DNA of 64,000 nt from Halorubrum alkaliphilum (GTDB lineage Archaea; Halobacteriota; Halobacteria; Halobacteriales; Haloferacaceae), in contig NZ_JAGGKQ010000004.1 of assembly GCF_017873815.1 (NCBI RefSeq), positions 147,009 through 211,008 on the forward strand, written 5' to 3'. A program made the translations under genes and the position numbers. The notes below the pieces were generated by a model. That model made no database searches. It was not told the DNA's origin and saw nothing but the letters and a program-made list of their open reading frames with translations. Below are positions 62,873-64,000 of the stretch, in pieces. Position 1 is the first letter of the stretch. Every line of letters begins with the position of its first letter.

Positions 62873-62888
62873 CTCCGCACGTGCGGAG
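62873..62888. repeat. Perfect 16-bp palindrome before the CPBP gene
   Basis: CTCCGCACGTGCGGAG is its own reverse complement. It lies 15 bases before the GTG at 62903 and could be an operator for a dimeric regulator or a stem in the RNA. Confidence 0.6.
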
Positions 62889-62902
62889 TGGAGGGTCACA
62901 GT

Positions 62903-63730
62903 GTGAAACCCCTCAAACTAGCAGTAAGTCGATGTCCGATCGTGATGTTCCTCTGTGTCACGTTCAGCTTTTCGTGGGGGTTTGCGGGGCTCCTGTACGG
63001 GGTCACGGGTAACGATGTGTTTTTCATAGTCGGTGCGCCGTTCGCTTGGGGCCCGCTCGTCGGTGGTGTGGTGACCGTCTGGCTGCTGGACGAGAACGTT
63101 CGATCGTGGATCGGGCAGATCCGGAACTGGCGTGTCGGAGGAGTCTGGTATGGCATTGGAATCGGTGTGCTGCTTCTCAGAACGGATTTCAACGGGATTA
63201 CTGCGTTTCTCCTCGGCACAGAGGTGACCCTCGAAGCCAGTGGGTGGATGCTGTACACTGCGCTGTTCAACTTCTTCGTGACGCTGATCCTCGCGGGGGC
63301 GCTCGAGGAGTTCGGGTGGCGCGGCTTTGCGCAGGCGCGACTCCAGCAGCGCTACAATGCGGCCCTCGTGACCGTGTTCATCGGAGGGATTTGGGCAGTC
63401 TGGCACGCTCCGCTCATACTACTCGGACTCGGAAGTTTCACCACCCCGTTCAACTACGCTCTGATACTGATCGGTACGTCGGTTTTCTACGGATGGCTCT
63501 ACAACGAGACTGACGGAGGACTGTTCGTCGTGATGGTGGCCCACGCAGCAGGGAATATGCCGGCGTTCATCCGTGTCACAGGCGGGACACCACACCTCTT
63601 GGAGTCACTTCCGATAACCCCTACCGTACTCTTCTCACTCACGTTTGCCGGCGTTTTGATATGGTATGCTGGCTCGGAGACACTCACACGAGACGGGATA
63701 CTTCCGGACGTACCCGGACACAGTGGATGA
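62903..63730 (+). CDS. CPBP-family intramembrane metalloprotease
   Basis: The 275-residue protein has about eight hydrophobic helices and the complete CPBP motif set: EEFGWRG (near 135), AVWHA (near 164) and HAAGN (near 213). It is the third CPBP-type protein within 8 kb. Two GTG starts exist: 62888 and 62903; the second begins right before the basic KPLKLAVSR. IS110-type DNA follows within 50 bases of the stop. Confidence 0.82.
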   Translation: MKPLKLAVSRCPIVMFLCVTFSFSWGFAGLLYGVTGNDVFFIVGAPFAWGPLVGGVVTVWLLDENVRSWIGQIRNWRVGGVWYGIGIGVLLLRTDFNGITAFLLGTEVTLEASGWMLYTALFNFFVTLILAGALEEFGWRGFAQARLQQRYNAALVTVFIGGIWAVWHAPLILLGLGSFTTPFNYALILIGTSVFYGWLYNETDGGLFVVMVAHAAGNMPAFIRVTGGTPHLLESLPITPTVLFSLTFAGVLIWYAGSETLTRDGILPDVPGHSG

Positions 63731-63785
63731 GAAACCAGTTCTGATCACCACTCTTGATGGGATGAAAGCCTGCTAAGTCCCCAGC

Positions 63786-63950
63786 GCATGGAGTAAGAAT
63801 GGGGTGGTAAAGGCCGATGCTTCACAAGCGTCTTCGAACGCGTGCTCTTGATTGGTCTACGTGCCAAGGAAGCCGCATCATGGGACGCCGCCCGTCTGTC
63901 CGACAGACAGACGGGCGGCAAGCCCGAATAGGTGTGTCTCTACTCCATGC
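63786..63950 (+). ncRNA. Candidate IS110 bridge RNA
   Basis: A closing stem of ten base pairs (GCATGGAGTA at 63786-63795 with TACTCCATGC at 63941-63950) encloses 145 bases. Inside lies a hairpin with a 14-bp perfect stem (63887-63900 with 63906-63919) and a five-base loop. The region sits just before the recombinase start, where IS110-group bridge RNAs are encoded in bacterial relatives such as IS621. Expression is not shown. The strand is assumed from the recombinase. Confidence 0.55.
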
Positions 63951-63971
63951 ACTCCCACTCCAGAGGTCATC

Positions 63972-64000
63972 ATGTACTACCTCGGAATCGACCTTCACAA
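63972..64000 (+). CDS. IS110-family transposase, N-terminus only
   Basis: ATG 63972 is followed by YYLGIDLH, the usual start of IS110 DEDD recombinases, where the Asp is the first RuvC-fold catalytic residue. Only nine codons and two bases lie in the window. The enzyme would insert the element under guidance of the bridge RNA encoded upstream. Confidence 0.8.

Follow-up and report, generated by a model that had tools for sequence, protein, structure and literature searches.

The window analysed here is a 64,000-nucleotide (nt) stretch of the Halorubrum alkaliphilum genome (assembly GCF_017873815.1, contig NZ_JAGGKQ010000004.1), and at its right end lies the left part of an insertion sequence of the IS110 superfamily, in which the segment 63786-63950 very probably encodes a predicted guide RNA, with one loop matching the target flanks and the other matching the element ends, and likely steering the recombinase. 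A sequence-only reading had proposed a bridge RNA at this place before an IS110 recombinase, and as a predicted RNA this proposal was borne out by the comparison of relatives. The element occupies the window from 63755 to its last base, where the contig (C4) also stops, and of the recombinase gene the first 29 nt alone, beginning with the start codon at 63972, lie in the window. The contig end truncates the window copy's own gene, and relatives had to supply the full reading; 76 elements were tabulated (46 Halorubrum copies and 30 from other haloarchaea; L, C and G are our labels for loci, contigs and genomes). The features of the window copy, all on the plus strand, are as follows.

63749-63754, +: left target flank (host DNA), CACTCT here and CGCTCT in most window-type relatives
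63755-63761, +: left end of the element, a 7-nt extension TGATGGG with TG as the probable core; left-end matches begin here or 1 base earlier, and flanks diverge beyond
63762-63775, +: left subterminal inverted repeat (sTIR) ATGAAAGCCTGCTA, with the inverted copy TAGCAGGCTTTCAT close to the right end in relatives
63786-63950, +: core of the predicted guide (bridge/seek) RNA, ends approximate; covariance model match 63773-63973
63786-63795 and 63941-63950, +: closing stem P1, 5' arm GCATGGAGTA and 3' arm TACTCCATGC, a perfect 10-bp pairing
63812-63816 and 63853-63857, +: P2, base of the target loop, 5' arm GGCCG and 3' arm TGGTC, nearly invariant
63819-63828, +: right target guide (RTG) GCTTCACAAG, 5' side of the target loop
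63828-63841, +: P3, small apical hairpin of the target loop
63842-63852, +: left target guide (LTG) GTGCTCTTGAT, 3' side of the target loop
63875-63880, +: right donor guide (RDG) GCATCA, whose last five bases, CATCA, can pair with TGATG of the left end
63887-63900 and 63906-63919, +: P4, 14-bp hairpin capping the donor loop, GCCGCCCGTCTGTC and GACAGACGGGCGGC, loop CGACA
63927-63934, +: left donor guide (LDG) AATAGGTG, which matches CATAGGTG at the right end of relatives
63972-64000, +: first 29 nt of the IS110-family recombinase gene, which runs off the contig

Read from 5' to 3', the predicted RNA would run P1, P2, RTG, P3, LTG, the 3' arm of P2, RDG, P4, LDG and the 3' arm of P1. Its target loop would match both target flanks and its donor loop both element ends, and the recombinase, presumably binding the RNA, would join an excised circular form of the element to the site so chosen. 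The RNA itself could be transcribed from the circle junction, possibly by way of a TATA-like box in the right end.

One line of evidence for this reading comes from the target guides, which vary with the host sequence left and right of the element. The LTG equalled its own left flank at 4.53 of 6 variable positions, as against 1.85 for the flanks of other guides (75 elements), and the RTG paired with its own right flank at 5.89 of 7 positions, as against 3.61 for mismatched combinations (55 elements), the core and the end extension being excluded from the scored positions. Neither value was reached in 100,000 permutations over 27 left and 31 right guide strings, and the outcome was the same (0/100,000) when hairpin bases were dropped from the key, leaving 26 left and 30 right guide types. 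The two sets are the tabulated rows with a usable flank, and 71 of the 75 left rows are distinct, some flanks being shared between rows. Seven class loci without an automatic anchor, one without a detected sTIR and six without a detected P2 were dropped before the test, nine Halorubrum loci with no recognisable left end (L092, L106, L109, L118-L121, L132 and L142) never entered it, and L208 was kept with a mis-anchored RTG.

A second comparison made no use of anchors. Right flanks found their complement in the upstream noncoding region (7.75 of 10 vs 6.47, 0/5000; 55 elements) and barely in the downstream region (6.55 vs 6.39, 207/5000), while left flanks gave a weak signal upstream (7.09 of 11 vs 6.82, 6/5000) and 6.82 vs 6.81 downstream; the wrong-strand controls of this test gave nothing. 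The set comprised 10 chosen window-family copies, 9 chosen group-B copies and 36 of the 40 class loci; it omits the class loci L172, L197, L201 and L209 and the group-B loci L134 and L138, which have right ends, it includes a mis-anchored L174, and in the 19 chosen copies the gene ends were placed at fixed offsets. Regarding the order of the guides, the comparison in IS1111 order gave 6.5 (right) and 6.9 (left) of 7 over 54 elements, the left value including constant core and extension bases, and the comparison in IS110 order gave 3.9 and 4.1.

Individual subtypes illustrate the correspondence. Siblings of the window subtype (e.g. L086-L088) carry GCTACACA, and the right flank of L087, L088, L091 and C20 is TGTGTAGC; on the other side, GCTCTTG corresponds to the left flank CTCT plus TG with its neighbours. 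In a second subtype, that of L8, ATTCAACA pairs with TGTTGAAT, and GGCTCTG corresponds to GGCTC plus TG. The recombinases of window-subtype copies are 90-97% identical to that of L008, so retargeting would have gone along with changes of the guide. For the window copy itself, the right flank is predicted to begin with TG and to pair with GCTTCACA or with the sibling's GCTACACA. Full-length window-type siblings carry GCTACA or GCTACG at the RTG position. The complement of the window RTG, CTTGTGAAGC, fits a variant transposon end (CTTGTGAAG followed by T or C), which was met at five sites among the matches in 52 Halorubrum genomes, one of them in the window's own genome, and the variant guide may possibly represent natural retargeting.

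The donor guides were likewise compared with the element ends. Window-type elements begin with TGATGGG followed by ATGAAAGCCTGCTA and end with TAGCAGGCTTTCAT followed by AGG, after which host DNA resumes. The LDG agreed with its own right end at 7 of 7 positions in all six hand-picked right-end types, which is the single best of 720 pairings; one of these types is a recombinase-less copy on contig C10, where ACG replaces AGG in both the end and the guide. The RDG pairs with the 7-nt left extension (e.g. CGAGTCA with TGACTCG, and AGCTTCG with TGAAGCT) at 50 of 56 positions over eight hand-picked left-end types, G-U pairs being allowed, and 51 of 40,320 pairings were as good. Together with the target guides, these agreements supply the match of loops to element ends and copy flanks on which the sequence-only reading had let its case depend. 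The sTIR is 14 bp long in window-type relatives and perfect over 12-18 bp in 35 of the 40 class loci; it has one mismatch in L173, L174 and L178, and none was credible in L201 and L209. It was also observed that AAAAATATAGTA starts 51 nt before the right end in all 20 window-family right ends, pointing over the circle junction, where it could possibly act as an archaeal promoter for the RNA in the circle; the 60 nt displayed for right ends of the other subgroup lack it.

The structure of the RNA was examined in the window and in alignments. Both pairings reported by the sequence-only reading in the 165-nt segment before the start codon, the perfect 10-bp closing stem and the perfect 14-bp hairpin, were confirmed. 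The closing stem, which that reading had called clear, turned out to be at chance level: perfect 10-bp inverted pairs spanning 120-200 nt number 27 in the window and 14-27 in five first-order Markov simulations, and P1 was ruled out as stand-alone evidence. Perfect 14-bp hairpins with loops of 3-10 nt occur twice in the window and in none of the five simulations. For the segment 63754-63972 the fold scored z = -2.96, and 2 of 200 shuffles did as well.

Both alignments, A2 (23 window-type and close rows) and A3 (32 rows from the other subgroup), point to one set of helices. In A2, P1 is paired in 88% of cells vs 78% in shuffles (0/1000), a count that leans towards structure because the P1 columns of some rows had been shifted by one gap by script beforehand, A3 being left unaltered; P4 is paired in 94% vs 85% (0/1000), with 8 double-change pairs vs 4.2. 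P2 is paired in 98% of cells with no excess over shuffles in A2 and two double-change pairs in A3, and P3 in 97% in both alignments vs 94% and 90% in shuffles. Over all 1120 cells of A3, 97.5% are paired vs 93.4% (0/500), double changes occur in 9 of 35 pairs vs 4.1 (0/500), and slid versions used as a control pair at 24-43%. Covariation of the stems among related elements, another point on which the proposal had been made to stand or fall, is thus present in the A2 and A3 counts. With the mixed alignment A1 as input, RNAalifold did not recover P1 and split P4 up, probably owing to a difference in register between the subgroups.

A covariance-model search had also been suggested, and the model built for it came from A3 alone, i.e. 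without the subgroup of the window. It nevertheless found the window RNA at 63773-63973 (103.6 bits, E 8.4e-27) as its sole match in the window, along with 32 further upstream RNAs (L172 weakly) and the cut copy L009, reaching relatives down to about 54% protein identity (L211), with no match in seven bacterial records or nine target loci. The Rfam scan of five loci returned one sub-threshold match (snoZ185 in L205) and none at the RNA. In L112, L113 and L115 the RNA was observed without the long P4 hairpin, and L112 and L113 have common flanks.

Several observations weigh against a guide RNA as described, or against parts of it. The right end and recombinase of the window copy are absent from the assembly, and the last 300 bp left of the element match the own genome only among the 52 genomes, so no empty site was shown. 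The window LTG equals its own left flank at 4 of 6 variable positions, and the window RTG is one base off that of its siblings. Elsewhere, poor left fits are found in L140 (2/6) and in eight rows at 3/6, and poor right fits in L202 and the mis-anchored L208 (3/7) and in L133, L175 and L176 (4/7). The RDG is not evident in L203 and L205, the right end of L187 is GGG vs AGG in its LDG, and the second base of the core differs in L184, L205 and L210. Double-change pairs of P1 in A2 are no more frequent than in shuffles, and further pair types in A3 are not unusual (73/500 shuffles). The relatives are moreover not independent, and the guide-type permutations alone partly allow for their kinship.

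Three other explanations were weighed. The structure could be only a leader or attenuator of the recombinase mRNA, the sites being chosen by protein contacts; it does lie directly upstream of the gene, and P4 looks terminator-like when judged by eye. This is very improbable, however, as the variable bases of the loops change with the flanking host DNA, left and right, also between subtypes with nearly identical recombinases, and the RNA is kept in copies that lack the recombinase. The least probable of the three holds that the matches stem from target sequence included in the assigned ends, or from shared repeats, and guide nothing. Many sites are indeed repeated transposon ends and the TG core is common to element and target, but guide and flank vary in step across 26 left and 30 right types with core and extension excluded, and the rejoined sites occur uninterrupted elsewhere.

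An ordinary IS110-group bridge RNA of the IS621 kind in the usual left end, which would explain the position upstream of the gene and accord with IS621 and ISCro4 being the only solved relatives found, is very unlikely in view of the reversed guide order and of the perfect sTIRs in most class loci. A predicted guide RNA whose guides are arranged as in IS1111 elements is the reading preferred here, and its placement among known systems is considered next to the literature on them.

The following statements on that literature refer to portions of the papers cited. In Siddiquee 2024 (PMC11187229), guide order is reversed between the two groups: IS110 elements have the RNA upstream with the left guide first, and IS1111 elements have it downstream with the right guide first. 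Marks of IS1111 given in the same portions are subterminal inverted repeats and end extensions of 7 bp on the left and 3 bp on the right, and a few exceptions are named, ISMtsp17 with its noncoding region upstream and ISHvo10 and ISAcp5 with long ones on both sides; those portions give no guides for these three. Durrant 2024 (PMC11208160) states that most IS1111 RNAs lie in the right end. Archaea are mentioned in passing in the portions of both papers (PMC11187229, PMC11208160), so an archaeal bridge RNA as such was to be expected; among the matches listed from the open-licence literature, no title or abstract was recognised as being on archaeal bridge RNA.

The haloarchaeal elements resemble the IS1111-group seekRNA elements ISEc11, ISKpn4, ISPa11 and ISPst6, as portrayed in the portions of PMC11187229, in having the top-strand complement first, sTIRs, 7/3-bp extensions and a recombinase in the range of 330-350 aa (335 aa in L008); unlike them, with their RNA downstream of tnp, they have the RNA upstream. 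With the IS621 bridge RNA, as it appears in the portions of PMC11208160, they have in common the upstream RNA, separate target and donor loops and an IS110-family recombinase; unlike IS621, they have the right guide first in both loops and an sTIR of 14 bp. In terms of the features that define IS1111, an sTIR of at least 11 bp, the 7/3-bp extensions and a top-strand complement 5' of the bottom-strand match were all found, while the guides are in the upstream region and not at the usual downstream position; in terms of those of the IS110 group, the RNA is upstream but the left guide is not on the 5' side of the loop. Noncoding stretches between repeat and gene are long on both sides, with medians of 201 nt (upstream) and 191 nt (55 elements).

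Judged by these sequence features, this is IS1111 logic at an IS110 position, with guide order and ends of IS1111 type and the predicted RNA upstream as in the IS110 group; the IS110-group picture of the sequence-only reading thus stood for the place of the RNA and not for the order of its guides or the type of the ends. A recombinase tree against IS1111 and IS110 types had long branches and weak support. The clade uncouples guide order from RNA position, which go together in the portions of Siddiquee 2024 (PMC11187229).

Recombinase-less mini-elements form the other unusual feature. Five complete copies of 492-496 bp (L093, L094, L095, L098 and L105) in four genomes have one internal deletion in common; each keeps the left end together with the RNA, which a short linker connects to the final 274 bp of the full element, little of the recombinase gene being left, and their left flanks differ. 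In the own genome, L222 (C10, 28351-28812) is a 462-bp recombinase-less mini-element of the other subgroup with its RNA intact. Among the 52 genomes searched, G017, G026 and G027 have left ends and no recombinase match. We infer that such copies move in trans, and they suggest what the smallest mobilisable unit could be.

We lean, by a little over even chances, towards the wider view that a haloarchaeal clade combines the guide logic and ends of IS1111 with an RNA located upstream, so that guide order would follow the ends and not the position of the RNA, and that the RNA would be a mobile unit of its own, 0.46-0.5 kb of RNA and both ends, moved in trans and retargeted into transposon ends. 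New to us are the mixed architecture and the RNA-only elements. The 26 left and 30 right guide types, with different targets for nearly identical recombinases, amount to a large natural set of reprogrammed archaeal guides.

As to the targets, the rejoined window-type site CGCTCTTGTGTAGCACATT occurs uninterrupted (at most 2 mismatches) in 34 of the 52 Halorubrum genomes, and the reversed pattern had one match. Seven of eight loci checked have a facing inverted copy (at most 7 mismatches in 25); four of the eight sites (L156, L159, L161 and L169) form an end of a roughly 1-kb element that carries an IS1595-family transposase gene (in L161 this gene is truncated and scores under the NCBIfam cut-off), and in L165 and L167 an IS5-family transposase gene is nearby. 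The second site, that of the L8 subtype (GGCTCTGTTGAAWTCC...GGTGATA), is present in 26 of the 52 genomes and not in the own genome; six of its eight checked loci have a facing inverted copy (at most 4 mismatches in 19), and one has an IS5-family transposase gene, in view of which a reading of the L8 target as an IS6-type end was dropped. Because of the facing inverted copies and the transposase genes at the sites, both subtypes are taken to sit in the ends of other mobile elements, as judged from the surrounding sequence. The L008 and L127 subtypes, whose recombinases are about 62% identical, share almost the same target GGCTCTGTTGAAATCC, into which they insert at points some 3 bp from one another.

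The site of IS5075 is a Tn21-type end. IS4321 and IS5075 are elements which we take to be of IS1111 type, and the IS5075 copy examined (L214) likewise adjoins the gene of a transposase, one of the Tn3 family. Its right-flank complement scored 9/12 downstream vs 6/12 upstream, and its left-flank match, 7/12 downstream and 8/12 upstream, was uninformative. Unlike the haloarchaeal elements it has the sTIR 61 bp before tnp and about 240 bp of noncoding sequence after the gene, and its recombinase is about 25% identical to that of L008. The Coxiella element QMITE2, a miniature inverted-repeat transposable element (MITE), offers a further likeness in that an IS1111 element sits in another mobile element, unlike the present case in that the site is a repetitive extragenic palindromic (REP) sequence inside the MITE and that no guide RNA figures in the portion of the description concerned (PMC5896051).

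Complete copies of the element measure 1426-1434 bp (11 measured). The recombinases of the full-length relatives L008 and L010 match PF01548 and PF02371 (DEDD_Tnp_IS110 and Transposase_20), and that of L008 also matches NF033542, 'RNA-guided transposase'. The 12 named loci in the recombinase comparison are ten from Halorubrum, one from a Halovenus metagenome-assembled genome (94% over 49 residues) and one from Streptomyces (30%). L212, on a Haloplanus plasmid, has a recombinase 98% identical to that of L008 and an IS5-family transposase gene close by. In the genome of the window, a second left end of the same subtype lies at the end of contig C33 and a right end at the start of C20, and contig C28 holds a complete relative encoding a 335-aa recombinase with both IS110 domains. 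L132 and L137 are contig ends with N and duplicated pieces of the element, probably assembly artefacts. Immediately left of the element in the window, at 62888-63730, lies a gene for a CAAX-protease-like (Rce1-like) protein.
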